DNA from: a virus
Reading direction: 5' to 3' (one strand)
DNA: 35,353 nt
Virus record (IMG/VR): IMGVR_UViG_3300043313_001108
Coordinates: 1-35,353 of that record
Below the pieces are notes generated by a model that was not told the origin of the DNA, made no database searches, and saw nothing but the letters and a program-made list of their open reading frames with translations. Made by a program: the position numbers and the translations under genes. Each line of letters starts with the position of its first letter. The first letter of the stretch is position 1. Positions 8,850 to 32,110 of the stretch are shown here, piece by piece.

Positions 8850-8879
8850 ATCTTAGTGGTACGCCACTGGGCCGGTCAA
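8850..8879 (-). promoter_or_regulatory. Promoter with operator TAGTGG-N4-CCACTg (site 1)
   Basis: On the minus strand, -35 TTGACC (8879-8874) and -10 TAAGAT (8855-8850) are separated by 18 bases. The palindrome occupies 8854-8869, with one change from consensus in the outer half. The start codon lies seven bases after the -10. Confidence 0.8.
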
Positions 8880-8914
8880 CCCCTCCCGCTTCCAGGGGGT
8901 TGACCGGCCCAGTG
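8865..8914. terminator. 19-base-stem hairpin overlapping promoter site 1
   Basis: A perfect 19-base inverted repeat (8865-8883 against 8896-8914) with a 12-base loop follows the stop at 8936 on the minus strand. The distal arm carries a second, inverted copy of the TTGACC -35 box and of half the operator. It probably ends the capsid transcript. Confidence 0.75.
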
Positions 8915-8935
8915 TGCCCAGCCGCAACCGGGGGT

Positions 8936-9517
8936 CTAGCTCACCACGAAGTACGGCGTGCCGCGGCGCGCGGTGAGCGCGGGCAGCACGGACGGCGCCG
9001 TGGTGGTGTAGGTCGCGGTGGTCTCCTCGGAGATCGTGCCCTCCGCCGGCGTGCCGGTGGTGATGGGGGGCGCGATCGTGAGGCCCAGCGTGGTGGGCAC
9101 CGTGCTGGCCGCGATGCATAGGCCGACGCGGTAGACGCCGGACTGCTTCGCCTTCGCCGCTGTCGCCAGGGCGATGGTGAAGACCGTGTTGGCCGCGATG
9201 GCGCCGGCCACCTGGTCGGCCGTCTGGCCCACCAGCTTGCCATCCGGGTCGTAGAGCGCCAGCCACCAGGACGTCATCGTGGCGCCGGCGGTGCCGCCGC
9301 TCACGAAGGACAGGTAGGTGGCCGGGTCGCCGGCCTCCATGGTGACCTTGCTCAGGGTCATCTTGCCCGTGGTGGCGAGCGCGATGGTGGCATCCACCGC
9401 CTGGTCGCGGGGGAGCGACCGGCGCAGGGTCGTGTCCGGGCTGGCCGGGTCGAGCCCGTTCAGGTGCCCCATCGCGTCGTAGATGTTGCGCTTGTAGAGA
9501 CCTCGCGTGCCGCTCAT
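8936..9517 (-). CDS. Probable accessory head protein, beta-rich
   Basis: This 193-residue protein starts at ATG 9517 with an ATGA overlap. Longer frames reaching 10312 overlap the upstream genes and are rejected. The start (SGTRGLYKRNIYDAMGHLNG) is helical. The rest is beta-rich, with WWLALYDPDGKLVGQTAD (about 110-127) and a Thr-rich C-terminus ending RGTPYFVVS, reminiscent of jelly-roll decoration or fibre proteins. It is the last gene of the scaffold-capsid operon before a strong hairpin. No specific family is recognised; the role is inferred from position. Confidence 0.6.
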   Translation of the reverse strand: MSGTRGLYKRNIYDAMGHLNGLDPASPDTTLRRSLPRDQAVDATIALATTGKMTLSKVTMEAGDPATYLSFVSGGTAGATMTSWWLALYDPDGKLVGQTADQVAGAIAANTVFTIALATAAKAKQSGVYRVGLCIAASTVPTTLGLTIAPPITTGTPAEGTISEETTATYTTTAPSVLPALTARRGTPYFVVS

Positions 9518-12020: not shown

Positions 12021-12122
12021 GGCCGGTATCGACGTCAACCGAACGGGCAGACCTCACGCCCCCGGGGCGGAGTGTAAGGGGTTGCGAAGGGCGGGACCCC
12101 CTTGCACGGCGGTGACATAAGG

Positions 12123-12138
12123 TAGTGGAGCGCCACTA
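12123..12138. promoter_or_regulatory. Stand-alone operator TAGTGG-AGCG-CCACTA (site 2)
   Basis: This is a perfect copy of the palindrome with no convincing -35/-10 pair at the usual spacing and no start codon in phase on either strand. It is in the intergenic region between the divergent scaffold operon and the 12235 gene. Its right half runs straight into a copy of the TATGTCCGGTTC repeat. Confidence 0.75.
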
Positions 12139-12208
12139 TGTCCGGTTCGTCGCCCGCTCGCCCGGATCGCTGGCGTAAGGGATCTGCGCACATGCTGGTC
12201 AGGGGATC

Positions 12209-12228
12209 TAGTGGCACTCCACTAAGAT
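12209..12228 (+). promoter_or_regulatory. Promoter with operator TAGTGG-CACT-CCACTA (site 3)
   Basis: A perfect palindrome (12209-12224) overlaps the -10 TAAGAT (12223-12228), and the ATG of the next gene lies six bases on. The -35 position (CAGGGG or TCAGGG) is poor, so this promoter may be weak or need help. Confidence 0.7.
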
Positions 12229-12234
12229 GGAGAC

Positions 12235-12438
12235 ATGACTGACTTCGAGAACGCGCGCACGTACGCCGAACTGGTCACCCTCGCCGCGGCGCTGAAGGGC
12301 AAGGCGCTGCAGGCGGCACTGGACGCGGTGGGGCTGGACTTCCTGCGGTCGCAGAGCGTGGCCCGCAAGCGCGAGTCGCTGGCGAACTACTACGGGCGCG
12401 GGCTGGACAGCGCTGCCATCGCCCGCATGACGCGCTGA
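12235..12438 (+). CDS. Small hypothetical protein, operator-controlled
   Basis: This 67-residue helical protein is the only plus-strand gene in the virion half. The ATG is six bases after TAAGAT, so the message is probably leaderless. The sequence has an acidic N-terminus and a basic C-terminal part (RSQSVARKRESLANYYGRG..SAAIARMTR) that could form a helix-turn-helix-like DNA contact, but no family is recognised. It stands alone, bounded by the operator promoter and a strong bidirectional hairpin at 12451-12494. Isolation as a monocistronic unit on the opposite strand suggests a regulatory or host-takeover role (inference). Confidence 0.7.
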   Translation: MTDFENARTYAELVTLAAALKGKALQAALDAVGLDFLRSQSVARKRESLANYYGRGLDSAAIARMTR

Positions 12439-12450
12439 GCGCGGCAGCAC

Positions 12451-12494
12451 AGCAAGAAGCCCTCCCCGCTTGGGGGCGGGGAGGGCTTCTTGCT
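12451..12494. terminator. Strong bidirectional terminator
   Basis: A perfect 19-base stem (12451-12469 against 12476-12494) with a 6-base loop lies between the convergent ends of the 12235 gene and the minus-strand genes. The AAGAAG arm gives CTTCTT on each transcript, which partly serves as a U-rich tail. Confidence 0.85.
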
Positions 12495-12518
12495 GCGTGT
12501 GCTTCTGGTGTTTCACCG

Positions 12519-12653
12519 TCACCAGCGGCGCATCACGGCACGGGCGAACCTGGGGAGGCGACCGGGCGGGCGCTCGACACGCAGGGAGCACCCGCGGCAG
12601 ACGATCGCGCCGCCGCGCCGCCGGCGCCGGAGGTCGTGCACCAGGTGCCCCAC
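12519..12653 (-). CDS. Small basic protein with Cys pair
   Basis: This 44-residue frame starts at GTG 12653, 10 bases after the stop of the membrane protein gene. It has a run of five arginines near residue 9, a CRGC pair, and an Arg-rich C-terminus ending VMRRW. It lies before the terminator and would be the last gene of the minus-strand operon. The composition suits a small zinc-binding nucleic-acid protein, but the frame is short and could be chance in GC-rich DNA. Confidence 0.4.
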   Translation of the reverse strand: MGHLVHDLRRRRRGGAIVCRGCSLRVERPPGRLPRFARAVMRRW

Positions 12654-12663
12654 GCCCGCGAGT

Positions 12664-12966
12664 CTAGCTGGCCGGGCCGCCGCCGGGGGAGCGCAAGGAC
12701 GAGTCCCGGGGGATCGCGATCCCCCGGGAGACCAGCTCCTCCATCAGCCGCTCCTGATAGCGCTGAGCGTCAGTGAGCCGCTGGTTCACCATGACGTGCA
12801 CCTCAGCAATCTGGGCGGTGTTGGCCCGCGTGCCACGCAGGATCGGCAGCAGGACGGTGATAGACGTGATCAGACCGCCGATGGCGATGAGCACGGTCGC
12901 CACGGCGGTGATGATCCCTGCGAGGCTGGACGGATTCATGGGCCCCAGTATGGGGCCCGGCGTCAC
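12664..12966 (-). CDS. Small membrane protein with C-terminal coiled coil
   Basis: The frame starts at GTG 12966 (GTGA overlap with the upstream stop, 100 residues) or at ATG 12939 (91 residues). No Shine-Dalgarno sequence settles it; the overlap pattern used throughout the window favours GTG. One long hydrophobic segment (SLAGIITAVATVLIAIGG..ITVLLPIL) is followed by a polar helical tail (NTAQIAEVHVMVNQRLTDAQRYQERLMEELVSRG). The shape resembles small phage membrane proteins near lysis or superinfection genes, but it is far from the lysis cassette at the right end. Function unknown. Confidence 0.65.
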   Translation of the reverse strand: MTPGPILGPMNPSSLAGIITAVATVLIAIGGLITSITVLLPILRGTRANTAQIAEVHVMVNQRLTDAQRYQERLMEELVSRGIAIPRDSSLRSPGGGPAS

Positions 12967-13256
12967 CAGCTCTCACGGTGTGTGATGGCGGTGATCGCGG
13001 CGGCCGGGACGCCCGCCTTCAGCGCCGCCTTGACGATCTTCAGCTGCGCCTCCCGCTGGGCGCTCCACGAGCGGTTCTGGAGGCGGCGCTGCTCGCCCGT
13101 CTGGCCGTGCATGCCCGCCTCCAGGGCCTCCAGCTCCGTCTTAGTCCAGTCCAGCAACTCCAGGTAGTCAGCCTCCGTGATCTGGCTGAGGCCCTCCAGG
13201 CTGGCGATGGTGAACGGCACGTGGGGGGCGGGGGCGGTGGTGCTCGGCTGCGTCAT
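12963..13256 (-). CDS. Hypothetical protein, operator-controlled
   Basis: This 97-residue protein starts at ATG 13256, seven bases after the -10 TAAGAT of promoter site 4, so it is probably leaderless. After a Pro/Ala N-terminus comes an acidic helix (ITEADYLELLDWTKTELEALEAG). A basic Arg/Gln-rich helix follows (about 50-70), with a C-terminal KAALKAGVPAAAITAITHRESW. The last part looks like a small helix-turn-helix (inference). No family is recognised. It heads a three-gene unit ending at the 12451 terminator. Confidence 0.65.
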   Translation of the reverse strand: MTQPSTTAPAPHVPFTIASLEGLSQITEADYLELLDWTKTELEALEAGMHGQTGEQRRLQNRSWSAQREAQLKIVKAALKAGVPAAAITAITHRESW

Positions 13257-13263
13257 GCCTCTA

Positions 13264-13292
13264 ATCTTAGTGGCGCTCCACTAGGTTGTCAA
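13264..13292 (-). promoter_or_regulatory. Promoter with operator TAGTGG-AGCG-CCACTA (site 4)
   Basis: On the minus strand a consensus -35 TTGACA (13292-13287), a 17-base spacer and -10 TAAGAT (13269-13264) frame a perfect palindrome (13268-13283). The ATG lies seven bases downstream. The -35 overlaps the last codons of the upstream gene. Confidence 0.87.
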
Positions 13293-13474
13293 GCGGTCTT
13301 AAGCTGCACGTATCCGTTGGTCCAGCCGTTGAGTCCGCTCACGCCCACGCGCCGGACCACGTCCGTGACAAGCATGGCCATGACCTCATCACCCTCGACC
13401 GGCTTGCCGCTGTCATCGATCTTGACCTTGCCGATGACCTTGTCATGGCGCACGGACTTGACGGTAATGATCAT
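13289..13474 (-). CDS. Small hypothetical protein
   Basis: This 61-residue protein starts at ATG 13474 with an ATGA overlap with the MuF-kinase gene. It is beta-rich: MIITVKSVRHDKVIGKVKIDD, then VEGDEVMAMLVTDVVRR and GWTNGYVQL. It may be an OB-like or SH3-like small barrel (inference). Translational coupling to the minor capsid gene suggests either a virion accessory or an immunity-like partner of the fused kinase domain, but nothing in the sequence proves this. Confidence 0.6.
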   Translation of the reverse strand: MIITVKSVRHDKVIGKVKIDDSGKPVEGDEVMAMLVTDVVRRVGVSGLNGWTNGYVQLKTA

Positions 13475-15306
13475 GCGTCCTCCAGCGCCTTTAACCTCGT
13501 CAGCATGGCGGCGTACCAGTCGGCCCGGCCCATCGCTTCGAACTGCGCCTTCAGCGCGCCCAGCTCTGCCCGGATGGCGTCCGCCTCCCCGGCCCGCAAC
13601 GCACCGGACACGAAGCGCCCTGCCGCCCGGTCCACGAAGTGCTCCTCGAAGAGGTTGAGCACCAGCGGGATGCCGCCCGGCGGGTTGTACTCGTGGTGCC
13701 ACTCGAAGGCGGCGCCGTGGTCGATACCCCAGGGCGTGCCGGCGCCGTCACTGATGATCACGTTACCGGCGTTGCGGTCCATGTTGCCCATGAGCAGGTC
13801 ACCCAGCGCGATCGAGCGCGCCTCCTCGCTCTGGCGGACGGCCGTGCGCGCCGCGCCCTGGGGGAGCTCCGCCCACGTGTCGCCCTCGATGTAGGTCTGG
13901 TGCGTCTCGTTGCGGCCGGTCCGCAGCACGCGCGGCGCGCGTCCGCCCACTGCGCGCAGCACCAGCGCGCCCAGCTCCTCTGCATCCTGCTCCTCCGCCG
14001 CGCCGCCCTCGCGGCCGCGGGTGTCCTTGCTCCGCTTGCGCACCATGCGCAAGCCCTGGCGCGTCTCGACCAGGTCGACGTGCGCACTCTCGCCCCCACC
14101 CAGCGGGCGCTCACTGGCGATGCCGGAATCCAGCGCCTCGCGCATCGGGTCTCGAGGAATGTTACTGGCCGGTAACTTATCTCGAGCGTCGCCCCGCCCC
14201 GGTCTGCGCGTGTTGCCCAGGTCGATGCGCTGCCGGTCCGGCCGCGGGGTCAGCGTGTCGTTCTGCTTCAGGTGCTCCTTGATCTGGGCGCCGCGCTCCT
14301 TGACCTTCGTGGCCGCCTTCGCCTTCGCCTCGTCGGTCATGGCGCCGGCCTCGCGCAGCCTCCAGCGGCGCTGCTCGCGCTCCAGGTACCGCAGCTTCTG
14401 CCGCGCCGCGTCGCCCTCCGGGTCCTCCGTGTTGGTCGGAATCCGAGTCAGGCCCGGCAGGTAGGCGCCGAGATTATGCCGGCAGTTCGGGTGCAGCAGC
14501 CCGGCCCCTACCGCCTCCGTCACCGACCCGGCGACCTGCACCGTGACCGGCTCGCCGGTGAGCTCACTCTCCGCCTGGATCGTGCGCCGCCCGCCGGCGC
14601 CCCCACGCTGAAGAATCTTGCCCTCCCAGGGCCGGCAGCGCTCGCACTCCTGCGGGCTGTCACTGACGATGACCAGGTCCAGGCCCAGCGACTCCAGCCG
14701 GTCCAGGTGGCCCTGGATCGCGGCCTGGGCGGTCGCGGTACGGGTGGCCATCTCCGTGTAGCCAGCCGCGTTCCAGCGCCGCCCGCTCGCGTCGGTGAAG
14801 GCGGTGAACCCCTGATCGAGCAGCCCATTCCACTGTCGCTCCGCCGCCTGCCGGCGGGTGATGGCGCCGCCCAGCACGAGCGCGACAGGCGCGGCCGCCG
14901 TGCGTTGGTAGGCGTCCACCGCACTGCGCACGATCGGCGCCACCGCGCCGTCCAGGCGACCGCGGAGCGCGAGCGCCAGCCGGTCGATCCCGCGCTGTCC
15001 GGGCAGGTCGCCCCCGCGCTCCGGCCGCCCGACGTCGCGCAGGCCTTCCATCGAGCCGCGCCGGAATGCCTCCGTGACGGCGGCGCGCGAGAGGCCCGCG
15101 GCCCGGCGGGCGGCGCGGTTGGTCAGGGTGGAGGCGAAGCGCCGCACGTCACCCAGGGCGGCCAGCTTGCGCCGGGTCCAGTCGTCGGACTCCATCCCCG
15201 TGCGCAGGCGTGCAGCGAGGCCGGCCGCCAGCTCGCGCTCCAGGCCCGCATACAGATCGCCCAGCTCCAGCCCGATACCCTCCCCGAGGTCACGCCGCGC
15301 CGGCAT
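13471..15306 (-). CDS. MuF-type minor capsid protein fused to a kinase-like domain
   Basis: This is a 611-residue protein from ATG 15306, chosen because GAGG lies six bases upstream; it overlaps the portal end by 17 bases. Residues about 1-290 are the phage minor capsid/MuF part. It is helical, then SPQECERCRPWEG (CERC about 221-224) and HPNCRHNLGAYLPG (about 272-285), the usual Cys/His cluster of such proteins. Residues about 390-540 read as a protein/lipid-kinase-like fold: a Gly-rich start (PLGGGESAHVDLVE), a basic strand (GLRMVRKRSK), an Ala/Glu helix, a catalytic loop GNMDRNAGNVII (about 507-518, D and N conserved), and a metal motif WGIDHGAAFEW (about 526-536). MuF proteins can carry toxin-like domains that travel in the capsid and enter the host with DNA. 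A kinase in this position is unusual. Targets are unknown. Confidence 0.82.
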   Translation of the reverse strand: MPARRDLGEGIGLELGDLYAGLERELAAGLAARLRTGMESDDWTRRKLAALGDVRRFASTLTNRAARRAAGLSRAAVTEAFRRGSMEGLRDVGRPERGGDLPGQRGIDRLALALRGRLDGAVAPIVRSAVDAYQRTAAAPVALVLGGAITRRQAAERQWNGLLDQGFTAFTDASGRRWNAAGYTEMATRTATAQAAIQGHLDRLESLGLDLVIVSDSPQECERCRPWEGKILQRGGAGGRRTIQAESELTGEPVTVQVAGSVTEAVGAGLLHPNCRHNLGAYLPGLTRIPTNTEDPEGDAARQKLRYLEREQRRWRLREAGAMTDEAKAKAATKVKERGAQIKEHLKQNDTLTPRPDRQRIDLGNTRRPGRGDARDKLPASNIPRDPMREALDSGIASERPLGGGESAHVDLVETRQGLRMVRKRSKDTRGREGGAAEEQDAEELGALVLRAVGGRAPRVLRTGRNETHQTYIEGDTWAELPQGAARTAVRQSEEARSIALGDLLMGNMDRNAGNVIISDGAGTPWGIDHGAAFEWHHEYNPPGGIPLVLNLFEEHFVDRAAGRFVSGALRAGEADAIRAELGALKAQFEAMGRADWYAAMLTRLKALEDA

Positions 15307-16843
15307 CCACAGCCTCATCCACAGGTTGCGGAAGACCGCCACCGGTGAAGCCGCCCGGGTCCTCCGGCGGCGCGGTGGCGGCACTGATGCGCTCCACCTC
15401 TGCGTCCACGTCGATGTCCTCCCAGTCCGGATGCAACATCTGCACGAGCGTGCGGGTGCTGGCCGCCTGGGCAGCGCTGATCAGCTGGAGGGTCTGGGCC
15501 AGGGTCTGGATGTCCGGCGCCGTGCTGTCGGGCCACTCCAGCCGGACCTTGGATGCCGTCATGCCGGCCAACTGCTGCATGACCCAGAGCCCGTGCTGGA
15601 TCACCGGGGTCCAGTACTGGATCTTCTTGCCCCGGGTGGCGCGCCGCCTGCTGCCCTTGTCGTTGACCTGGGTCGCGGTCTGCATGGGGCCGATGTCGGT
15701 GTCATGGTCGCTGGTGTCCAGGCCCGCCGCGCTGGTGATCGTGCGCCAGTGCGCCGCCACCGTGTCGCGGTGCTCCTGCACCCTGATCGCGAACTGCACC
15801 ACGGTCATGGACAGCGCGCCGTCGCTCGGGATGTCGGCAGTGACCTGCTGGAAGATCTCCTGCTCCGGATCGAACGCTGTGCCCTCCCCCGCTGCGCCCC
15901 TGCGCAGGTACTCCTTCGGCACGATCACGCGGCCTTTGCCCAGCCGGATGTCCCGCATCCAGCTTGACATGGTCTCGTCCAGGGCATCCATCGCCCCTTC
16001 CGCGCCGGCATAGTCCGATCGGCCCAGCATGGTGTGCCGGAGCAGGCGGTGGGGCCGGACGTTCGGCACGTACACCACGTCGAGCAGCGACGTGCCGACG
16101 TCGATCCGGCCGCCCGGGTCGACCAGGGTCGCCAGCCGCTTGCACTCCTCGTCGCCGTCCGCCAGGGGGATGCGCCTGCCCAGCGAGGTGGAGGAGCCGG
16201 TGAAGAGCGCGTGCTCGACCCAGCACTTGCCCTCGTCCATTTCGTGTAGCTCGACGTGCCGGACCACGGGGCCGGTCCCGTCGCCCCCGCTGACGCAACG
16301 CCAGAACGCCACCCGGCGCAGGTGCGGGCCGTAGAAGTCGGGGTCCGCGTTGTCCGGCAGCAGCGCTTCCGCGACCGGCACGGGGGACACGTCCAGGTTG
16401 ACGCTGAAGCGAAGGTACCCGCCGCCGGCGGCGCTCACCTTCTCCGCCGCCTCCGCCAGGGTGGCGAGGAACTGGGACTGCTCCACGATGTCATCCAGGC
16501 GTGCCTGCTGTTCGGCCTGCTCCGTCTCGAACTTCGGCGGCTCACTGAAGAGCATGTCGGAGCTGATGACGCTGATGTCGCTGGCGGCAGGCACGTGCAG
16601 ACGCCGGGCGGCAAGACCGGCCACCGGGTTGCCCCACCACTTGCGGGAGATCCAGCCGCTCAGCCCGCCGTTGAGCTGGCTCGGGCGGACGTGCGGCGCC
16701 ATGCTCCGCGACCGATCCGCGTAGACCCGGTGGAGCTGGTCTCCGTCACCGGAGTACCAGGCCAGCCACTCCTGATAGAACGGCAGGGCGGGCACCACGG
16801 CGGGCGGGGGCCAGGCCTGATCCGGCCCGTAGTCGATAGGCAC
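15290..16843 (-). CDS. Portal protein
   Basis: This 517-residue protein forms the dodecameric ring through which DNA is packaged. It matches SPP1/A118-like portals. The N-terminal wing begins around FYQEWLAWYSGD, with a W-I-S-R-K-W-W segment. The central clip/stem region includes a helical part near DDIVEQSQFLATLAEAAE. A polar helix follows (AMDALDETMSSWMRDIRLGKGRVIVP), and the C-terminal crown helices contain TLAQTLQLISAAQAASTRTLVQ. It is acidic and Gly/Pro-rich at the end. It starts at GTG 16843 with GGAGGGG eight bases upstream, but both lie in the arm of a long hairpin. It follows terminase and precedes the MuF gene, the canonical order. Confidence 0.92.
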   Translation of the reverse strand: MPIDYGPDQAWPPPAVVPALPFYQEWLAWYSGDGDQLHRVYADRSRSMAPHVRPSQLNGGLSGWISRKWWGNPVAGLAARRLHVPAASDISVISSDMLFSEPPKFETEQAEQQARLDDIVEQSQFLATLAEAAEKVSAAGGGYLRFSVNLDVSPVPVAEALLPDNADPDFYGPHLRRVAFWRCVSGGDGTGPVVRHVELHEMDEGKCWVEHALFTGSSTSLGRRIPLADGDEECKRLATLVDPGGRIDVGTSLLDVVYVPNVRPHRLLRHTMLGRSDYAGAEGAMDALDETMSSWMRDIRLGKGRVIVPKEYLRRGAAGEGTAFDPEQEIFQQVTADIPSDGALSMTVVQFAIRVQEHRDTVAAHWRTITSAAGLDTSDHDTDIGPMQTATQVNDKGSRRRATRGKKIQYWTPVIQHGLWVMQQLAGMTASKVRLEWPDSTAPDIQTLAQTLQLISAAQAASTRTLVQMLHPDWEDIDVDAEVERISAATAPPEDPGGFTGGGLPQPVDEAVDAGAA

Positions 16844-16910: not shown

Positions 16911-16921
16911 GCAGGGCTGGA

Positions 16922-17842: not shown

Positions 17843-17849
17843 CGTACCA

Positions 17850-17869
17850 TACTTAGTGGCACGCCACTA
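17850..17869 (-). promoter_or_regulatory. Promoter with operator TAGTGG-CGTG-CCACTA (site 5)
   Basis: A perfect palindrome (17854-17869) lies just upstream of and overlapping -10 TAAGTA (17855-17850) on the minus strand. The -35 region is weak (only a CTGACG at a 20-base spacing). The GTG start is seven bases after the -10. The outer end of the palindrome contains the terminase stop codon. Confidence 0.75.
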
Positions 17870-22171: not shown

Positions 22172-22200
22172 ATCCTAGTGGAGCGCCACTAACTCGTCAA
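22172..22200 (-). promoter_or_regulatory. Promoter with operator TAGTGG-CGCT-CCACTA (site 6)
   Basis: On the minus strand, -35 TTGACG (22200-22195), a 17-base spacer and -10 TAGGAT (22177-22172) enclose a perfect palindrome (22176-22191). The ATG is six bases downstream. The -35 overlaps the end of the RusA gene. Confidence 0.86.
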
Positions 22201-24823: not shown

Positions 24824-25056
24824 GCGGCAGCACCCGGCGTCACGTAGCGCAGCGGCCGGGAGGGACGGATCGGCCTGGCGATGACGAGCTCACCCCGCTG
24901 GAGCAGGTGCGTCCAGGCCTGCTCGAAGAACAGCCGGTCCCGGGCCGGGATCGTGCGCCGGTAGTCACGCTTCGTGCGGTACCGCATCGGCCGGCGCGAC
25001 GCGTCGCGCAGAGCTGCGACGGTCGCGGCGAGGGGGTCGGGTGCGTGCACGGTCAT
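24820..25056 (-). CDS. Small basic protein heading the helicase operon
   Basis: This 78-residue protein starts at ATG 25056, seven bases after -10 TAAGCT, so it is probably leaderless. It is strongly basic: RDASRRPMRYRTKRDYRRTIPARDR, then FFEQAWTHLLQRGELVIARPIRPSR. It may bind nucleic acid (inference). It is the first gene of the helicase-zinc protein-RusA operon and is coupled to the helicase by overlap. No family is recognised. Confidence 0.66.
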   Translation of the reverse strand: MTVHAPDPLAATVAALRDASRRPMRYRTKRDYRRTIPARDRLFFEQAWTHLLQRGELVIARPIRPSRPLRYVTPGAAA

Positions 25057-25063
25057 GAGGTCG

Positions 25064-25092
25064 AGCTTAGTGGAGCGCCACTAAGGAGTCAA
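25064..25092 (-). promoter_or_regulatory. Promoter with operator TAGTGG-CGCT-CCACTA (site 7)
   Basis: On the minus strand, -35 TTGACT (25092-25087), a 17-base spacer and -10 TAAGCT (25069-25064) enclose a perfect palindrome (25068-25083). The ATG is seven bases downstream. The stop of the upstream 94-residue gene lies within the operator. Confidence 0.86.
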
Positions 25093-25365
25093 GTCCATGA
25101 GGCGCTGCGCCTCGTCCAGTTCGGCCACGAGCCCCAGGCGCGTCTCGTCCGGCACGGGAGTGCCGGCGGACAACTGGTCGCTGGCGGGCTGGCGGTTGAT
25201 CCAGCCGTGCCCGATGGCGTGCATCGTCGCCTTGACGAAGTGCGGCCGGTCGGCGGAGGCGAGGGCGTTGCGAGCGTCGGTGATGGACACCGTGCCGTGG
25301 TTGTGCGTGCGCCGGGCGATGAGCCGCGCGATACGTGCGATTCCCTGGGAGTCCGTGGATGCCAT
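25081..25365 (-). CDS. Small probable DNA-binding protein beside the origin
   Basis: This 94-residue protein starts at ATG 25365 (MASTDSQGIARIARL). No Shine-Dalgarno sequence precedes it, but TATCCT lies six bases upstream, so a leaderless start is plausible although the -35 is poor. Residues 8-50 (IARIARLIARRTHNHGTVSITDARNALASADRPHF) look like a helix-turn-helix, and the C-terminus is acidic. Longer frames reach into the iteron region and are unlikely. Its position next to the putative origin suggests a replication or copy-control role (inference). Confidence 0.55.
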   Translation of the reverse strand: MASTDSQGIARIARLIARRTHNHGTVSITDARNALASADRPHFVKATMHAIGHGWINRQPASDQLSAGTPVPDETRLGLVAELDEAQRLMDLTP

Positions 25366-25399
25366 AGGGGGAGGATAGCAGATGTAGTAGACATTGATG

Positions 25400-25662
25400 G
25401 GTTTGATGTGGACAACGAGGACATGTGGACAAGGCCCTTCAGGGGTGTCCACATTTTCTGTGACGCAGGGTGGCAGTCCGCTTACTACTGTGCAGTAGCC
25501 TCTTTACCGATACAAAGATGTCCCTAGCAGGGAATATTTACATGTATGTATGTGTGTGAGAGAGGACTCGCATAACGCGCGAGGCCGGTAGGGGCAGAGA
25601 AACAGAGACACCCCCGATGTGGACAAGATCATCTGTCCACATCGGGGGTGCGTGTCCACATC
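25400..25662. other. Putative replication origin with DnaA-box-like iterons
   Basis: Six copies of ATGTGGACA (or its complement) lie in a markedly AT-richer non-coding stretch between the 94-residue gene and the primase gene. Exact actinobacterial DnaA boxes (TGTGGACAA, i.e. TTGTCCACA) are at 25407-25415, 25424-25432 and 25618-25626. One-base variants are at 25445-25453, 25633-25641 and 25652-25660. The AT-rich core between them (about 25470-25560) contains TATTTACATGTATGTATG and could be the unwinding element. Short frames drawn across it are low-complexity and not credible genes. Confidence 0.7.
25611..25648. repeat. Perfect inverted repeat carrying two DnaA-box-like sequences
   Basis: Arms of 15 bases (25611-25625 against 25634-25648) with an 8-base loop each contain GATGTGGACA. 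It lies 20 bases beyond the primase stop on the minus strand, so it could also serve as a transcription terminator. Confidence 0.75.
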
Positions 25663-25667
25663 GAGCG

Positions 25668-28064
25668 TTAGACGTGCGTCGATCCTTTGACGAACGTCCC
25701 GTCCAGCTCCCCGAGCCAACCCCGCTCCGTAGCGACCAGCAGGGCGTCAACGACCAGGGAGCGATCCCTGGAATTGAGCACCCGGCGGATCGCGCCGGCG
25801 GTGAGGGCGCCCTCCTGCTGCACGCGCCGGGTCACCGCGAGCGCCACCCGCTCAACCTGGTGGCGCTCGCGATCCTCGCGTGCCTCCAGCACGGCAAGGG
25901 TCGCCTCCGTCTCCTGGGCGGAGTACGCCGCTCTACGGTCCGCTGCGGCTTTTCCCGCCATCGCCTGCCCGAAACTGACCAGGTGGTCCTGGACCCGGCG
26001 CGAGGTGTCCCAGACGATCCTGGCCAGCCGCCAATCCTCGGTGGTCACGTCCCGTCTGCCGTCCAGCTGGGCCAGCAGGGTGGAGAGCTTCACCAACATC
26101 AGCGGCCGGTGGGAGTCCAGAGGCGGGAGCACGAGCTCCCCGCGCGCCACCGCACGCACCTCAGGCTTGATCTCCGCGATGATGGCCGGATCGAAGGTGA
26201 CCGGCCGCAGATCCGCCACCGCGGCCCCGATGATCCAGGCGTTGCCGTCCGACTGGCTGGCCGGCCAGACGTCACGCAGCCCCCCGGGGTCGGGCACATC
26301 CTCATCCGGGATGGTCGGGTCTGATGCCCAGCACCACAGGAAGCGCTGAGGGGTGCCGGCGGCGCTGTCCGCCAGCAGGGGCTGGGCCGTCTCCGGCTGG
26401 AACCCGATCAGCATCCCGAGCGAGTAGCGCCCCTGCTCGATCACCCGCGTGGTCTCCACCCGCCCGTTGCTCTGCCCGATCGTGCCGCCCACCCAGGCCC
26501 GGCGCAGCGTCTCGCCCACCGTGGAGCCGGAGCGCTCGATCAGCTTGGCCAGAGCCTCCCCCTCGTCGGCGTGCATGAGGGCGTTGTGGATGACCTGGGC
26601 GCGCACCTTCTCCGTCTTCACCGCGCCCTTGAGGTCCTGGAGCGGAACTCCGTGCTCCAGCTTGGGCACGCTCTTCGTGCCCATGTAGACCTCCGCGATG
26701 CCCTCCCCCGTGCCCAACGGCCGGTCGTCGGCGTAGGCGGGCCGGTCCAGCCACGGGGGCCGCGGCAGCAGGGAGCGTGCCACGCTGATCCCCGAGGTCT
26801 TGCCCGATCCGGACGGGCCCACGGTGGCGCTGAAGAGGTTGGCGCACGCGCCGTCCTTGATCCCATTGTTGATCTTCAGCTGGTGCGGCCAGAGGCTGGC
26901 CAGCCGGGTCAGCACGGAGTGCAGCACGACGTCCGCCCCGACCAGGCGGGAGTGTGCCGCCAGCTGGATCTGCTTCAGCACGGGCCGGGCGCCCCAGAAC
27001 TCAGCCGGGAGGTTCAGCCCGATCGGCGACGTCGGCGAGCCAGTGATAGAGGGGTGCAAACCCGGGGGTGCCGGATCGGCGAAGACGAATCCATCCGTTG
27101 CTGGCGGGGATGAGCCGGACGCTGCCGTCGGGCCCTGTGGAAAATCCAGGCGCTCACCGCCCCAGGTGTCCGGCGGCAGCTCCGCCGCCTTGTCCATCGT
27201 GCGGTGCGCCGCGTTGCGCCAGACCCCGTCCGCCTCGTGCTGGCCGAACGGGTCGACCTTGTTGCCGGACGCCTGCTCCGCCGCGGCGAGGTAGGCATCA
27301 TAGGTCGCGTCGTACTCCAACCACCCCGCGTTGAGGAGCTCGTGCAGGCGGCAGGCCACCACGAAGGCGCGGGAGTTGCGGGAGCTGGACTCCTGGGCCA
27401 GCTCGCGGAGCACCGCGTCCCTGGCCCTTACCGCGTAGGCGGCGGCGCGGCTGTCCAGCGTGACCGGATCATGGGCGACGACGGCGGGCCGGTCATACGG
27501 CAGGGGCCTGATGTCGTCCAGGAGCCAGTGCGGCGCCGCCCAGGGGATCGCATCCCGGGTCACCTCATAGGCACCCTTGTCCGTGATCGAGGGGGCCAGC
27601 ACAATCTGGCCACCGGTGCCCCGGATGTCCAGGCCCGCGCCCAGCCGCCCGGTCGCGTTGGTCGGCTCGAAGTCGGCTGGCATCGTGAAGAGGCAGTGCA
27701 GGCCCTTCCCGCCCGTGCGCTGCTCCCAGGTCGGCGGCAGCAGGCGGCCGGCCCGTTCGTACTCCTGGAGCGTGAGGAGCCCGCCGTTCTTCGGGTCCAC
27801 GTCGAGCGCGAACACGCCGCTGGGGCGGCCGGTGGCGAGGCCCACGTTGGTGGGCAGACCGCGAGCGAGGCGCCAGCCGGAAATGGCGTTCCAGACCCCG
27901 AGGTCGTTGATCGGGACCTTCTGCCAGTTGCGGTAGAGCGGGTGCTTTCCGGCGTTCTTGCAGGCCTGCCCGAGGTCGCATGTGCAGACGCCCCCCACGA
28001 CACCGTGAAGGGCGACGATGGACCAGCCTCGTGCGAGGTAGCCGGTAACGCTATCATCCGTCAT
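25668..28064 (-). CDS. Primase-polymerase / ATPase replication protein
   Basis: This is a 798-residue protein. The N-terminal prim-pol domain (about 1-190) has the Cys/His-containing start ending AGKHP, FALDVDPKNGG (Asp88, Asp90), GGKGLHCLF (118-126) and a DIRGTGGQIVLAPS block, as in the bifunctional primase/polymerase family. A helical linker (about 205-300) joins a DUF3987-like P-loop ATPase with GPSGSGKT (416-423). A C-terminal helical region includes a likely winged helix (TRRVQQEGALTAGAIRRVLNSRDRSLVVDALL). It would make primers and unwind DNA at the adjacent iteron region. Start ATG 28064 has AGGACG upstream. A shorter start would break the prim-pol domain. Confidence 0.88.
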   Translation of the reverse strand: MTDDSVTGYLARGWSIVALHGVVGGVCTCDLGQACKNAGKHPLYRNWQKVPINDLGVWNAISGWRLARGLPTNVGLATGRPSGVFALDVDPKNGGLLTLQEYERAGRLLPPTWEQRTGGKGLHCLFTMPADFEPTNATGRLGAGLDIRGTGGQIVLAPSITDKGAYEVTRDAIPWAAPHWLLDDIRPLPYDRPAVVAHDPVTLDSRAAAYAVRARDAVLRELAQESSSRNSRAFVVACRLHELLNAGWLEYDATYDAYLAAAEQASGNKVDPFGQHEADGVWRNAAHRTMDKAAELPPDTWGGERLDFPQGPTAASGSSPPATDGFVFADPAPPGLHPSITGSPTSPIGLNLPAEFWGARPVLKQIQLAAHSRLVGADVVLHSVLTRLASLWPHQLKINNGIKDGACANLFSATVGPSGSGKTSGISVARSLLPRPPWLDRPAYADDRPLGTGEGIAEVYMGTKSVPKLEHGVPLQDLKGAVKTEKVRAQVIHNALMHADEGEALAKLIERSGSTVGETLRRAWVGGTIGQSNGRVETTRVIEQGRYSLGMLIGFQPETAQPLLADSAAGTPQRFLWCWASDPTIPDEDVPDPGGLRDVWPASQSDGNAWIIGAAVADLRPVTFDPAIIAEIKPEVRAVARGELVLPPLDSHRPLMLVKLSTLLAQLDGRRDVTTEDWRLARIVWDTSRRVQDHLVSFGQAMAGKAAADRRAAYSAQETEATLAVLEAREDRERHQVERVALAVTRRVQQEGALTAGAIRRVLNSRDRSLVVDALLVATERGWLGELDGTFVKGSTHV

Positions 28065-28093
28065 AGGTCGTCCTGCCCGTTCGACTCGTGAGC

Positions 28094-28118
28094 CCCCGCG
28101 GGGAACGACCGCGGGGGT
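28094..28118. terminator. Hairpin between the primase and the 108-aa gene
   Basis: A 9-base GC stem (28094-28102 against 28110-28118) with a 7-base loop follows the 28134 stop on the minus strand. It is extended by imperfect GAG/CTC pairing. It probably ends the short upstream transcript. Confidence 0.6.
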
Positions 28119-28133
28119 CTCTCATTGTGCACC

Positions 28134-28460
28134 TCAGGCCGCGACGGACTGAACAGCAGCCATCGGCCTGCGGGCGGCGGCGCCCTTCGGCATCGGATTG
28201 ACCTTCGCCCAGACCTCGCGCTCTGCGGCCGGCACGCTGGCGAGCATCCCGCCCCAGTGTTCCCCCGCGGTGAGCGGACCGTACGTGGAGATCAGCTCCG
28301 CCCGGACGACCGGCCACGAACGGTTGAGCGCGTCCCGGAGCAGACGGGAGATGGTGCCGGACTGGCCGCCCATCTTCGTCGCCCAAGCGCGCACCTCTCC
28401 CGTGTACTCCACGGACTGCATGACGATGAGCTGCGCGTACAGCTCCTTCTTGCCTGCCAT
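28134..28460 (-). CDS. Hypothetical small basic protein upstream of primase
   Basis: This 108-residue protein starts at ATG 28460 with GAGAGGA ten bases upstream. The first half is helical (MAGKKELYAQLIVMQSVEYTGEVRAWATKMGG..SRLLRDALNRSW) and could hold a small DNA-binding fold. The C-terminus is Pro/Arg/Ala-rich. It is divergent from the 28544 gene, and the two -35-like boxes lie back to back (TTGACC for this strand at 28501-28496). No clear -10 follows at standard spacing, so its promoter is uncertain. Confidence 0.65.
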   Translation of the reverse strand: MAGKKELYAQLIVMQSVEYTGEVRAWATKMGGQSGTISRLLRDALNRSWPVVRAELISTYGPLTAGEHWGGMLASVPAAEREVWAKVNPMPKGAAARRPMAAVQSVAA

Positions 28461-28506
28461 CGCTATCTAGTCCTCTCGATCATGTAACTTCCGAGGTCAA
28501 CACTAC

Positions 28507-28535
28507 TTGACGACTTAGTGGCGCGTCAATAAGAT
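28507..28535 (+). promoter_or_regulatory. Promoter with variant operator TAGTGG-CGCG-TCAATA (site 8)
   Basis: The -35 TTGACG (28507-28512), a 17-base spacer and -10 TAAGAT (28530-28535) enclose a palindrome whose second half has drifted (TCAATA for CCACTA). It may bind the regulator more weakly. The ATG is eight bases downstream. Confidence 0.82.
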
Positions 28536-28543
28536 GGACGTTC

Positions 28544-28897
28544 ATGAGGGTCGGGGACCAACGACGAATCGGCGCCGCGCTGGTGGGCGTCATGGTGATC
28601 ATGCTCGGCGTGATGATCGCGCTCTTCGTCCAGCTGCCCGCGGGGACGGCGCCGGCACGGCTGGCCCCCACCCCGGTGCGCGTGACGGAGCGGGTGGCCG
28701 CGGTGGAGGCGGTGTTCTGCGACCTGCTGGCCGACTCGCCGGACCTGGACCGCCGGATGGGCACCGCGCTGAACGCGAGCGGCGAGCTGCAGCACCGCAC
28801 GCTGGGCGCGCTGGCTGCCGAGTGGAGCCGGACCGGGGCCGCGGGCGCGCGCGCGCAGGTGCTGCTGGAGTGCCGCCGCCTGGGGCTGATCGCGTAG
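28544..28897 (+). CDS. Small membrane-anchored protein, operator-controlled
   Basis: This 117-residue protein has one N-terminal transmembrane segment (GAALVGVMVIMLGVMIALFVQL, about 10-31) after a short basic tail, so it is likely anchored with a 85-residue domain on the far side. That domain is helical and has two Cys (FCDLLADSPDLDRRM; LLECRRLGLIA). It is the first gene of a three-gene plus-strand unit. No family is recognised. A superinfection-exclusion or envelope role is possible from topology and control only. Confidence 0.68.
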   Translation: MRVGDQRRIGAALVGVMVIMLGVMIALFVQLPAGTAPARLAPTPVRVTERVAAVEAVFCDLLADSPDLDRRMGTALNASGELQHRTLGALAAEWSRTGAAGARAQVLLECRRLGLIA

Positions 28898-29115
28898 TGG
28901 CGCAGCTGCGGGAGGAGTACTGGTGCCTGGTGCCGGACTACGCGCAGATCGTGGGCGCGGGCGGCGCGCTGCTGACCGTCACGCCCGCGGTCAAGAAGGT
29001 CTATCCGCTGGACGCCTGGGCCCGTGTGACGATGGTCGAGCCGGAGATGAGCGATGCCGTGGTGGCGCTGATGGTGGCGTTCCCCGGCGCGACGATGGAG
29101 GTGCTGGAGCCGTGA
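28897..29115 (+). CDS. Small hypothetical protein
   Basis: This 72-residue protein starts at GTG 28897, overlapping the upstream TAG by one base. It is a compact mixed fold: LREEYWCLVPDYAQIVGAGG, then LLTVTPAVKKVYPLDAWARVTMVEPEMS and a terminal hydrophobic helix. A longer frame starting before the previous gene is a shadow. Coupling on both sides (TAGTG before, GTGA after) supports it. Function unknown. Confidence 0.62.
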   Translation: MAQLREEYWCLVPDYAQIVGAGGALLTVTPAVKKVYPLDAWARVTMVEPEMSDAVVALMVAFPGATMEVLEP

Positions 29116-29738
29116 CCGTTTTCGCTGCTACGTGGTGCTACGCCCTGCTGGCCTGGGTGCTGCTGGAGCTGGGCCTCAAGGCCTGGCGGGCGCCGTGGCG
29201 CATCGTCGGCCTGCTGCCCGGTGGCATGGTCGGGACGCTCCCGGTGCGCATCGAGCCGGGGGAGATCGTCTGGCAGGCGGCGGCCGGCCCGCCGGAGTCC
29301 GGCATGGTGCCGATGATCAGCAGCAACGGGGCCCCGTACTGGTATGCGGCAGAACTGCTCCGGCCCGTGGTGGACCCGGTGCACGTCGGCGCCACGGAGG
29401 AGTGGTCCCCGATCGCGGAGGCGGCGGCCGCCACAGCGGGACGGCTCCCGCTGGACGACGTGGACGAGTGGCTGGCCGGCCGCCTGCGTGACTACGACCA
29501 CCAGCTCTCCCGCATCGAATCCAGCCCGCGGCTGCCGGACGGGCAGCGCGCGAGCTTCCGGGTCCTGATCGGCGAGGAGCCGCCGGAGGGCGCGCGCACC
29601 GTGACGGAGGAGCTGGAGCGCTTCCGTCAGGGCTCGATGGCGCTGCACGAGTACCGCTCGATGATCCTGGAGAGCACGGGCGGATACACGATGCGTGAGG
29701 CAGCGCTCGTGGAGGCGCTGGTGCTGGCCGCGGCTTGA
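29112..29738 (+). CDS. Hypothetical membrane-anchored protein
   Basis: This 208-residue protein starts at GTG 29112 (GTGA overlap). One N-terminal hydrophobic segment (FAATWCYALLAWVLLELGLKAW, about 3-24) is followed by a short beta region (GMVGTLPVRIEPGEIVWQ). A large polar helical domain with acidic/aromatic stretches (LDDVDEWLAGRLRDYDHQLSRIE; VTEELERFRQGSMALHEYRSM) makes up the rest. It may be a peripheral envelope protein. The stop overlaps the -35 of promoter site 9. Not recognised. Confidence 0.62.
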   Translation: MTVFAATWCYALLAWVLLELGLKAWRAPWRIVGLLPGGMVGTLPVRIEPGEIVWQAAAGPPESGMVPMISSNGAPYWYAAELLRPVVDPVHVGATEEWSPIAEAAAATAGRLPLDDVDEWLAGRLRDYDHQLSRIESSPRLPDGQRASFRVLIGEEPPEGARTVTEELERFRQGSMALHEYRSMILESTGGYTMREAALVEALVLAAA

Positions 29739-29764
29739 CAGACTTAGTGGCGCGCCACTATCAT
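29735..29764 (+). promoter_or_regulatory. Promoter with operator TAGTGG-CGCG-CCACTA (site 9)
   Basis: A consensus -35 TTGACA (29735-29740), an 18-base spacer and -10 TATCAT (29759-29764) enclose a perfect palindrome (29745-29760). The ATG is six bases downstream. Confidence 0.87.
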
Positions 29765-29770
29765 AAACGC

Positions 29771-29977
29771 ATGACCAGCTATCGAGTCCAGTACACCGAA
29801 CGCAAGCCCGGCGGCAGCCTGGTCGACCAGGACGAGCGGATCACCGGCACGCTGGACGACGTTCGCGACCTGCTGGACTACCGACCGGTAGCCGGGCACA
29901 TCGCCCCGATGGTCACGGAGTACACCGAATCAGACAGCGTCGGCCGCATCGTGCCGGCATCCGAATGGGACATCTAG
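29771..29977 (+). CDS. Small hypothetical protein heading the nuclease operon
   Basis: This 68-residue protein starts at ATG 29771, six bases after the -10, so it is probably leaderless. An earlier TTG in the same frame lies inside the promoter and is rejected. It is acidic with a beta-rich start (MTSYRVQYTERKPGGS) and a helix near ITGTLDDVRDLLDY, ending VPASEWDI. No family is recognised. It precedes the nuclease gene by 14 bases. Confidence 0.65.
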   Translation: MTSYRVQYTERKPGGSLVDQDERITGTLDDVRDLLDYRPVAGHIAPMVTEYTESDSVGRIVPASEWDI

Positions 29978-29991
29978 GACGGGCAGGCGTA

Positions 29992-31740
29992 ATGGCGGAC
30001 AAGGGAACCCTGGAAGCGATCGAGAAGCTGAGGGCGGCACGGCCGCGCCAACTGCTCGATCTGATTGACGCGCTGGTGGCGACGCAGCAGAACTTCACGA
30101 CCACGCGGGAGGGGCTCGTCGCGGGCTTGCGCTTCCTGGTGGGGGACTTCCGACAGCAGGCCGACCTCGTCATGGACAGCGGGGCGCGCGGCAAGGGTGC
30201 GGAGGCGACCGCGCTGCGCGCCACCGCGTCGAGCCTGAGCCTGCTCGCCGACGCGGTGGAGAAGATCACCCTGGACGGTACGGGCGAGGTGCTGCCACAG
30301 GTCTCGCGCGGCGGTCCGTCAGTACCTGCCGAGTGGTGCCGCAAGACGGAGGACCACGGCCCGCACTTCTGGGAGCTGCCCCTCCCGCCCGGCGGCAACC
30401 CCCTGGAGCGTGGCCCGCTGCGGCGCGAGTGCACGGGGCACCACGAGCGCGACCTGACCGGGCTGAAGGCGCTCGTGGCGGAGCGGTCCGCGGGGGGTGT
30501 CAGGCTGCACGAGGGGCCGGACGGCAGCATGGTCTCCGACCCCTTCCCGGTCGTGGAGGTGACCGCGTTTCAGTTCGCCGACCCGGCGGGCACGGCGGCG
30601 GTGCGCCGGGACGGAGAGCTGGAGGCCTGGCTGTCCGGCGAGACGAACGTCATGCCGCCGATCCGCAACCACCGCGAGGACGGGCCAGTCTCGGGCGTGG
30701 CGGCCGCCGTGCTCCAGCTCACGGAGGCCCAGAGCGAGGCCTTCGTCACCCCCCGCGTGAACACTCCTGACCAGCGAGAGGCTGCCGCCGCGATGTTCGC
30801 CGACCCCAAGCCACTGCCCGGCGCCGCGCCCCCGATGCCCGGTCGCGTGCTGTCCTGGGCGGACGTCCGGAAGGCACCCACGCTGGAGCCGCCGGAGCAC
30901 CTGAGCTTCAGCCAGGGCGGCACGCTGGATGAGTGCGGCATGCAGTACCGGCTGCAGCGCCTGGAGCCGGACGTGGTGGGGCGGCCGCATTGGGCGAACG
31001 TGGGTGGTACGGCGCTGCACGCTGCGGTGGAGTGGTTCGAGACGCAGGTGGCGAAGGCGCCGGGCGATGCCGTGTACGCGAAGGCGCGCATCGAGATCGC
31101 CGGTGGGTTCGGTGCCATCTGGGCCAAGCACTTCGCGGAGGCCCTCACTGCCCAGGTTCTCGAGACCCCCGCCGTGCCGCCGGCGCACTGGAAGGCGGGC
31201 GGAAGGGGCCAAAGCGAGGGCTGGACCTGGTGGCAGGTTGAGGGTGAGGAGATGCTCAGGCGCTACCTGGAGCCGCGGCTGGAGGACATGGGCCGGGCGA
31301 TCGCGAGCGCGCTGGACGGCGCGCCGATGGTTGAGCTGGAAGGCGTGCTGGACGTCGAGGGTGTTGCATACAAAGTCGTGATCGACCAGGTGTGGGACGG
31401 CGAGAGTTTCGGACTCCCGCCCGGCTCGCTGGTCATAGACGACCTGAAGTCCGGCGCCTACGCACCGAAGGGCACCTACCAACTGGGCGGATACGCGTGG
31501 TACCTGCGCCTGGAGCAGGACGTGGAGCAGGTCTACGGGCGGTTCTGGGACGCCCGTACCGGGAAGTACAGCGAACCGGTGAACCTGCTGGAGCTGCACC
31601 CCTGGGACGAAATCGTGGTCCGGGTGCACGGGCAGGCGGCCAAGAAGGCGGGCGGCATCTTCACCCCGGCGCCGGACTGGAGTCGCTGCGGTGGCTGCTC
31701 CCTGAAGCACGCCTGCCCTGCGGCGCTGACCCGTGGGTGA
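29992..31740 (+). CDS. Cas4/AddB-like PD-(D/E)XK nuclease with long N-terminal extension
   Basis: This is a 582-residue protein. The C-terminal half (about 300-582) is a RecB/Cas4-family exonuclease: LSFSQGGTLDECGMQYRL (Cys315), GTALHAAVEWF (339-349), VIDQVWDG (Asp465), VIDDLKSGAY (Asp484, Lys486) and QLGGYAWYL (497-505). It ends in CGGCSLKHAC (Cys566, 569, 575). Together with Cys315 this gives the four-cysteine pattern of an iron-sulphur cluster. The first 300 residues are unusual: an acidic/helical region with CRKTEDHGPHFWELP and CTGHHERDL Cys/His stretches, matching nothing recognised. It would resect DNA ends for the 32641 protein to coat or anneal (inference). Confidence 0.85.
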   Translation: MADKGTLEAIEKLRAARPRQLLDLIDALVATQQNFTTTREGLVAGLRFLVGDFRQQADLVMDSGARGKGAEATALRATASSLSLLADAVEKITLDGTGEVLPQVSRGGPSVPAEWCRKTEDHGPHFWELPLPPGGNPLERGPLRRECTGHHERDLTGLKALVAERSAGGVRLHEGPDGSMVSDPFPVVEVTAFQFADPAGTAAVRRDGELEAWLSGETNVMPPIRNHREDGPVSGVAAAVLQLTEAQSEAFVTPRVNTPDQREAAAAMFADPKPLPGAAPPMPGRVLSWADVRKAPTLEPPEHLSFSQGGTLDECGMQYRLQRLEPDVVGRPHWANVGGTALHAAVEWFETQVAKAPGDAVYAKARIEIAGGFGAIWAKHFAEALTAQVLETPAVPPAHWKAGGRGQSEGWTWWQVEGEEMLRRYLEPRLEDMGRAIASALDGAPMVELEGVLDVEGVAYKVVIDQVWDGESFGLPPGSLVIDDLKSGAYAPKGTYQLGGYAWYLRLEQDVEQVYGRFWDARTGKYSEPVNLLELHPWDEIVVRVHGQAAKKAGGIFTPAPDWSRCGGCSLKHACPAALTRG

Positions 31741-32110
31741 CGTCGGGCACGTGGTGCACATCGAGCGGTTGGAGGGCCACGGGGTCAGGGTCTGGCTGGA
31801 CGGTGTGCCGGTCAGGAAGCTGATCGGCTGGTCCCTGGTGGAGGAGCTGCGGCCACCGTCCACGCTGACCCTCACGATCAAGACGGACGCGATCGTCTGG
31901 GGTCCGCCCACCCCGCCAGCGCCTGACTTCGCGGACGATGGCCTGGAGCACTTCGTGGTGACCGGCCCCAGCGGGCGCCGCACGCCGTCCGGCAAGTACG
32001 CCTGCCAGACCTGCGGTGAAGCCTGGGTGTGCAGCACCGCGACCCGACGTCTTGACAGGGTTAGTGACGCCCCACTAGGATCAGAGCATGGCGACGAAGG
32101 GCACCACTGA
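31733..32110 (+). CDS. Hypothetical protein with CxxC motif
   Basis: This 125-residue frame starts at GTG 31733 and overlaps the nuclease stop by eight bases; GTG 31751 is an alternative. It has a beta-rich N-terminal half (VVHIERLEGHGVRVWLDGVPVRKLIGW; STLTLTIKTDAI). The C-terminal part has CQTC and another Cys and is likely zinc-binding. Its last 60 bases contain promoter site 10, and it overlaps the next gene by 23 bases. Not recognised. Confidence 0.62.
   Translation: MGDVGHVVHIERLEGHGVRVWLDGVPVRKLIGWSLVEELRPPSTLTLTIKTDAIVWGPPTPPAPDFADDGLEHFVVTGPSGRRTPSGKYACQTCGEAWVCSTATRRLDRVSDAPLGSEHGDEGHH
32052..32081 (+). promoter_or_regulatory. Promoter with variant operator TAGTGA-CGCC-CCACTA (site 10)
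   Basis: A consensus -35 TTGACA (32052-32057), an 18-base spacer and -10 TAGGAT (32076-32081) enclose a palindrome with one drifted base (32062-32077). The ATG is six bases downstream. It is inside the coding end of the upstream gene. Confidence 0.85.

Follow-up and report, generated by a model that had tools for sequence, protein, structure and literature searches.

A recurrent palindrome in predicted leaderless phage promoters as the probable operator of one repressor regulon

Gene control in many well-studied phages proceeds as a cascade from few early promoters. The repressor gp33 of mycobacteriophage BPs binds five regions spread over the genome and regulates four promoters; its operator at PR lies between the -10 and -35 elements, and the divergent control region adjoins the repressor gene (PMC4557955). 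In Microbacterium phages of cluster EG, such as Hyperion, 8-10 copies of the inverted repeat GATCAACC-NN-GGTTGATC stand close before start codons (PMC7302621). Cluster O mycobacteriophages such as Corndog carry more than 30 copies of a 17-bp repeat, TGTTCGG-N3-CCGAACA, mostly away from promoters; its authors considered a role in transcription initiation unlikely, and leaderless SigA-like promoters are predicted there too (PMC4351075). The repressor of L5-type cluster A phages acts on many dispersed asymmetric sites, the stoperators, which also stop elongation (PMC9283540, PMC6550527), and phiC31 has dispersed repressor sites as well (introduction of PMC4557955). Finally, the Start-Associated Sequences of cluster K are asymmetric and directly precede gene starts; the part of that paper which deals with them reports no promoter elements on either side (PMC3203893). 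Here we describe a palindrome, TAGTGG-N4-CCACTA, in the IMG/VR record IMGVR_UViG_3300043313_001108, a single linear virus record of 35,353 bases with a G+C content of about 70%, presumably from a phage of a GC-rich bacterium, analysed at full length and called the window below. These palindromes are probably the operators (so called hereafter) of one dimeric DNA-binding protein, placed in the spacers of leaderless sigma-A promoters and forming a repressor regulon.

Ten copies of the palindrome were found in the window by a pattern search allowing two changes, and seven of them are perfect (Table 1). Nine of the ten end 10-12 nt before a start codon, which is ATG except for the GTG at 17854, and in gene orientation these nine share one column order: TTGAC, 4-5 nt, the dyad, AGAT or a variant of it, 6-8 nt and the start codon. 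At seven of the nine sites TTGAC begins 9-10 nt before the palindrome, giving spacers of 17-18 nt, while the -10 hexamer shares the last TA of the dyad and an in-register TANNNT is present at 8/9. A preliminary description of this DNA had listed the ten positions and, in seven cases, a TTGAC-type -35 with a -10 at 17-18 spacing; its coordinates were all right, and the seven spacings were borne out.

Table 1. Palindromes, promoter elements and related features (all positions in the window unless a locus is named)
Feature	Position	Strand	Sequence	-35 (first base)	Spacer (nt)	-10	Distance to start codon (nt)	Gene or context
Operator	8854..8869	-	CAGTGG-CGTA-CCACTA (one change)	TTGACC (8879)	18	TAAGAT	11	8240-8842 (-), upstream of connector and tail genes
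Lone dyad	12123..12138	.	perfect	no fitting promoter				86 bp before operator 12209, start to start
Operator	12209..12224	+	perfect	no TTGAC		TAAGAT	10	12235-12438 (+), one small gene, 67 aa
Operator	13268..13283	-	perfect	TTGACA (13292)	17	TAAGAT	11	12963-13256, then 12664-12966 (-)
Operator	17854..17869	-	perfect	no TTGAC		TAAGTA (in register, weak)	11 (GTG)	16922-17842 (-), upstream of portal and minor head
Operator	22176..22191	-	perfect	TTGACG (22200)	17	TAGGAT	10	21263-22165 (-), upstream of terminase genes
Operator	25068..25083	-	perfect	TTGACT (25092)	17	TAAGCT	11	24820-25056 (-), upstream of helicase
Operator	28516..28531	+	TAGTGG-CGCG-TCAATA (two changes)	TTGACG (28507)	17	TAAGAT	12	28544-28897 (+)
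Predicted leftward promoter	28500..28529	-	TTGACG-18-TAGTGT	TTGACG (28529)	18	TAGTGT		overlaps operator 28516, faces gene 28134-28460
Operator	29745..29760	+	perfect	TTGACA (29735)	18	TATCAT	10	29771-29977 (+), upstream of exonuclease
Operator	32062..32077	+	TAGTGA-CGCC-CCACTA (one change)	TTGACA (32052)	18	TAGGAT	10	32088-32270 (+), upstream of 32641-33468
Candidate regulator gene	28134..28460	-						108 aa; between divergent promoters and prim-pol (25668-28064)
G2 dyad example	L146:200-240							
G2 dyad example	L147:17870-17910							

The largest family of identical dyads with 6-bp arms (gap 0-10) has seven members in the window, against at most three in 100 dinucleotide shuffles, and raising the tolerance to three changes adds four matches, compared with a mean of 5.3 per shuffle, which is the chance level. 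TTGAC occurs 45 times in the window on both strands, so that a simple binomial gives about 2e-19 for its presence at seven of nine sites. The pattern TTGAC-N(16 to 19)-TANNNT returned eight promoters in the window, all with spacers of 17-18 nt and all overlapping an operator, one of them being the reverse, back-to-back partner at 28516. An independent sigma-70 scan of positions 12101-32100 found five promoter-like sites where 0.9 were expected, and all five were operator sites.

At the operator promoters, the gap between the -10 and the start codon is only 6-8 nt, implying that the mRNAs would begin at the start codon and be leaderless. Shine-Dalgarno-like 4-mers precede two of nine operator genes and 16 of 27 others, with hand-picked starts, as expected for leaderless starts; both at operator genes are the AGGA inside a TAGGAT -10. 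The layout fits leaderless promoters of the actinobacterial type, in which the -10 ends 6-8 nt before the start without a Shine-Dalgarno sequence.

Gene coordinates and annotation place the operators at the heads of nine transcription units, early and structural and on both strands, as the preliminary description had stated, and orthologous places are kept in two other phages (below). On the leftward strand, 25068 precedes the helicase-RusA block, 22176 the packaging genes, 17854 the portal-minor head block, 13268 genes 12963 and 12664, and 8854 the connector-tail genes. Rightward, 28516 precedes 28544 onward, 29745 the exonuclease, 32062 the genes from 32088 onward and 12209 one small gene. 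The sites are often fused to the end of the preceding gene: the operator TAG terminates the reading frame of the terminase at 17854, of RusA at 22176 and of 25081-25452 at 25068, and the TGA within TTGAC serves as stop codon at 13268 and 29745. A perfect inverted repeat with 20-bp arms at 12450-12495 separates the rightward gene 12235-12438 from the leftward ones and is perhaps a two-way terminator. The scaffold and capsid genes are located beyond 12664 and this strong hairpin; since it may stop transcription before them, we did not ascribe them to 13268.

To follow the dyad beyond the window, we looked at relatives, as the preliminary description had suggested for the 16-mer, and found it at orthologous positions in two of them. 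L119, which is the same contig as L066 and spans 9,078 bp, has a terminase 98% identical and carries the dyad four times without a change; three of these copies are orthologous to 22176, 17854 and 13268, and one is extra. G11 (L157/L162; 9,959 bp, terminase 58% identical) has one site before the homologue of 12963, the counterpart of 13268, and one before the positional counterpart of 16922, that of 17854, with no tblastn match between these two genes. Arm changes occur at 5 of 16 aligned sites and none is compensated, four breaking a pair and one giving G-T, which fits DNA sites and not RNA stems. At the three sites shared with L119, the 100 nt preceding the operator are 89-96% identical in DNA and the 100 nt following it 57-63% (baseline: random 0.49, maximum 0.54 over 50 draws). 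In a rough control with six non-operator starts, identity at terminase and portal was high on both sides close to the start and low 100-200 nt upstream; the minor head was in the wrong register and RusA was without upstream DNA. Moreover, none of the nine operator-led genes has a tblastn homologue (E 0.01) in the six distant relatives G2, G3, G6, G13, G14 and G19, compared with 25 of the 40 others on the gene list (Fisher p 6e-4), a difference that is indicative only because short genes are harder to detect.

A pattern scan of viral contigs with TTGAC included returned seven stretches. L066 and L157 (= G11) are of the same kind as the window; L154, L156 and L158 were taken as chance, being AT-rich with a single dyad or a second one with two changes; L153 and L155 represent another GC-rich element. 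In the latter GC-rich viral records, paired TAGTGGGTACCCACTA-type sites stand at L153:511-550 and L155:6770-6809, one over TTGAC and one just downstream, and they were set aside as a different system with probably a separate regulator. Without the -35, the scan gave at least 118 stretches, and L066 was the only GC-rich one among the best 30; requiring the dyad, a -10 and ATG gave four, L066 and three AT-rich ones. No DNA match to positions 10001-35000 of the window was found in 50,697 phage records, and the terminase relatives in that set are all below 60% identity.

A more distant relative, G2 (L146-L148; 41,563 bp, terminase 48%), has six promoter-spacer dyads unrelated to those of the window: five of the form GCCTACATG-N4-CATGTAGGC, four perfect and one with left-arm changes, and one CCTACAGC-N4-GCTGTAGG, standing between TTGACA and TAGGCT or TAGGAT. 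At least one related phage, G2, keeps the layout with different dyad sequences. The best dyad axis is 6 nt before the -10 in G2, the window, L119 and G11 alike. In a register test on 137 GC-rich loci (L119-L323 and the window, after prior exclusion of 15 duplicate, reference or other-element loci), 18 of 70 distinct promoters had at least 5/6 dyad pairs at this axis, against 0, 0, 0, 4, 0, 0, 2 and 0 promoters in eight shifted registers. The 18 come from the window (6), G2 (6), L119 (3), G11 (2) and G3 (1). Elsewhere the best axes are 2.5 nt in G3 (with 6.0 second), 7.0 in G13, 12.5 in G19 and 14.5 in G14. The promoters of G20 look related, and at least one has a leaderless form like those of G2 and G3. 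The shared register is clear for four phages, weak in a fifth and not evident across the wider group. TTGAC-like half sites recur in promoters of L324 (G13), L328/L329 (G19) and L326 (G14), one as the -35 and one inverted beside the -10, an operator layout that differs from that of the window.

How could such sites work? A dimeric repressor excluding RNA polymerase fits best because the dyad has half sites one helical turn apart and overlaps the -10 within a spacer of standard length. The promoters would be of the host type (sigma-A) and start leaderless mRNAs, and the protein, presumably phage-encoded, would bind and repress by covering the spacer together with the opening bases of the -10, keeping RNA polymerase off. 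One regulator would in this way silence phage genes, switching or tuning nine transcription units that head most functional blocks.

Alternatively, the palindrome could serve activation, as the binding site of an activator or as an element of a promoter peculiar to the phage: a phage protein bound in the spacer would then recruit or remodel RNA polymerase and turn the nine units on. The sites 12209 and 17854, which would need help for want of TTGAC, speak for it, as does the presence of a site at most module heads, as for a middle or late activator. However, seven of nine promoters already have TTGAC and TANNNT at 17-18 nt, MerR-type spacer-binding activators need spacers of 19-20 nt and a dyad overlapping the -10 is in the usual repressing position, so we consider activation unlikely. 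The operators could also belong to a host-encoded regulator borrowed by the phage, the units then following a host signal, and it is true that the record has no recognised repressor gene and that a relative with in-register dyads is without a detectable homologue of the phage candidate described below. Yet when 84,980 species, each represented by one genome, were searched with TTGACN{4,5}TAGTGGN4CCACTANNAT, a strict pattern that would miss host sites with other flanks, there was one match, in a Lewinella metagenome-assembled genome and probably by chance, which makes a host regulon less likely; as G2 moreover uses different dyads in the same place, we hold this explanation to be quite improbable. 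Last, RNA hairpins, start-associated translation signals or boundaries serving mainly recombination for gene exchange are very improbable: the fall in identity just past all three shared operators and the lack of homologues for operator-led genes favour a boundary, but those genes are mostly short and so less detectable, the exchange of promoter-plus-gene cassettes may itself produce boundary behaviour as a side effect, the strict -35/-10 spacing and an axis common to different sequences point to transcription, and RNA structure was rejected since the arm changes are uncompensated and the dyad, with the predicted start at the initiation codon, lies outside the transcript.

Several observations weigh against the repressor regulon. 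Copy 12123 has no fitting promoter, in agreement with its preliminary description as a lone copy. TTGAC is missing at two of the nine promoter sites, which had been described as having a good -10 only; this holds for 12209 (+, TAAGAT), but the in-register TAAGTA of 17854 (-) is poor. In G11, a third copy (1984) lacks TTGAC and leaves a gap of 19 nt to another start codon. A regulon of this kind usually serves lysogeny, which the gene content does not show: integrase and resolvase (PF00589, PF00239) and HTH_3 (PF01381) gave no match in the window, which is probably an incomplete record, and among nine records searched an integrase and an HTH_3 gene were found only in G021.

The same description placed the regulator outside the window, which is doubtful. 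By synteny with G2, the missing part of the record seems to be mainly the tail-tip segment, so the early region is probably complete, and it includes a candidate gene, 28134-28460, whose product may bind DNA. This gene is the sole match in the window at E 1 (E 0.0017) to a profile built from genes of G6, G13, G14 and G19, and G20 also matches (4e-4). The leftward -35 that faces it, TTGACG at 28529 on the minus strand, is formed by the two departures of operator 28516 from the consensus; these changes create the -35 of a back-to-back leftward promoter, and since the adjoining promoter pair contains this operator, the candidate would be self-regulated. Back-to-back pairs occur once each in five of nine records scanned (the window, G13, G14, G19 and G20), always with an offset of 22 bp, and all five records carry a gene matching the profile. 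The pair is 14-93 bp from that gene in four of them; in G19 the nearest promoter lies 72 bp from the gene, with the pair at a distance of about 350-370 bp, and G6 has a single promoter 44 bp from its gene.

There are many points on the other side. Four of the six records that match the profile are its own sources, G2, G3 and G21 have no match at E 1, and at E 0.1 the only match among 17 further records was G13, itself a source. In-register dyads occur without a candidate homologue in G2 (six) and G3 (one); conversely, G6, G13, G14, G19 and G20 have the gene, and no in-register promoter (at least five pairs) was found in the scanned stretches of G6, G13, G14 and G19, a scan that was partial for these four and for G20. 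Gene and in-register dyads were found together only in the window among genomes with an early region, L119 and G11 being fragments without one. The product has no match in Pfam, NCBIfam or the 50,697 phage records, its best PHROGs match has E 0.044, profile searches of PDB sequences had no match below E 0.11, and RHH_1 is absent from all nine records at E 10. Homology to the relatives is modest (hhalign probability 23%, E 9e-4; BLASTP to L145, E 0.002). By eye the protein looks ribbon-helix-helix-like, which databases and models did not confirm; the AlphaFold models are weak (predicted local distance difference test 64 and 71), and Foldseek gave no significant match. We therefore put forward the product of 28134-28460 as the regulator tentatively, as a lead, with our confidence lowered because G2, which has in-register dyads, does not match the profile.

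Other genes were considered and rejected. Gene 12235, with two dyads upstream, has no homologue in eight relatives, and G11 has a different gene there. The winged-helix-looking 25081 and 24820 gave no match above curated cut-offs and have no homologue in relatives. Small genes upstream of prim-pol in G2 and G3, taken as possible relatives of the candidate, were unsupported by profile comparison and not counted.

The annotation used here rests on PHROG matches for tape measure, major tail, head-tail adaptor, scaffold, portal, terminase, helicase, prim-pol, exonuclease, minor head and major head, and on a Pfam match for RusA. Two further features were seen. The minor head protein (13471-15384, -) has a C-terminal extension of about 240 residues with kinase-like motifs by eye, outside the tblastn matches to the six distant relatives and inside the match to G11. 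Downstream of the prim-pol gene, a 19-pair hairpin with a T-rich tail (25608-25651) is the longest of six terminator-like sites listed.

A wider reading, which we find doubtful and rate lower because G2 shares the axis without matching the candidate profile, is that an integrase-less phage lineage runs its programme module by module via one small self-regulated repressor of an undescribed family, the operator axis being fixed in leaderless promoters while its sequence diverges between phages, with operator-plus-start cassettes as ports for new genes. If true, phages would gain new regulatory specificities with promoter architecture unchanged. Since the same operator is built into a separate promoter at most blocks, one protein could reach all of these simultaneously, and much of the phage gene programme could probably be governed by a single DNA-binding protein. 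A relative that keeps the axis but has another sequence provides a natural series in which the co-evolution of operator and regulator specificity can be studied, and the compact stop-operator-start modules are possible ready-made regulated leaderless promoters for GC-rich bacteria.

In a partial literature search, neither this palindrome nor a leaderless module-by-module operator set was found described. With phiC31 the likeness is that of one repressor with many dispersed sites (PMC4557955); unlike the L5-type stoperators, the sites here are symmetric and 9/10 are embedded in promoters. As in cluster O, a dyad-symmetric repeat is spread over the phage genome, but here there are ten copies, nine of them promoter-linked. 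Like the cluster K sequences, the dyad has a fixed place before starts, with different gene families in different phages (PMC3203893). Cluster EG repeats resemble those of the window in being kept where neighbouring genes differ, yet they typically lie 14-22 bp from the start (PMC7302621), whereas ours lie at 10-12 nt and are flanked by promoter elements. In Hyperion 30000-61769, TTGAC is missing from the 30 nt before each of 11 sites (up to three changes), and by eye the interval between repeat and start often contains a purine-rich stretch resembling a Shine-Dalgarno sequence. In the sources consulted the closest described case is BPs, followed by cluster EG. The preliminary description had called the promoter geometry distinct, which is half right, since BPs PR too has a palindromic operator between -35 and -10 (PMC4557955), as the seven sites with both elements at 17-18 nt have here. 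The full BPs site pairs the 12-bp palindrome CGACATATGTCG with a variant half site 5 or 8 bp away (PMC4557955); here the site appears to be a single 16-bp dyad, and no second copy (up to three changes) adjoins a promoter site in the window, where the closest copies are 86 bp apart and a strongly diverged one would escape. BPs is temperate with integration-dependent immunity (PMC4557955), while the present record, probably incomplete, has no integrase match. Unlike in BPs, the operators here are found at nine promoters that head most blocks of the genome and that are predicted to give leaderless starts.

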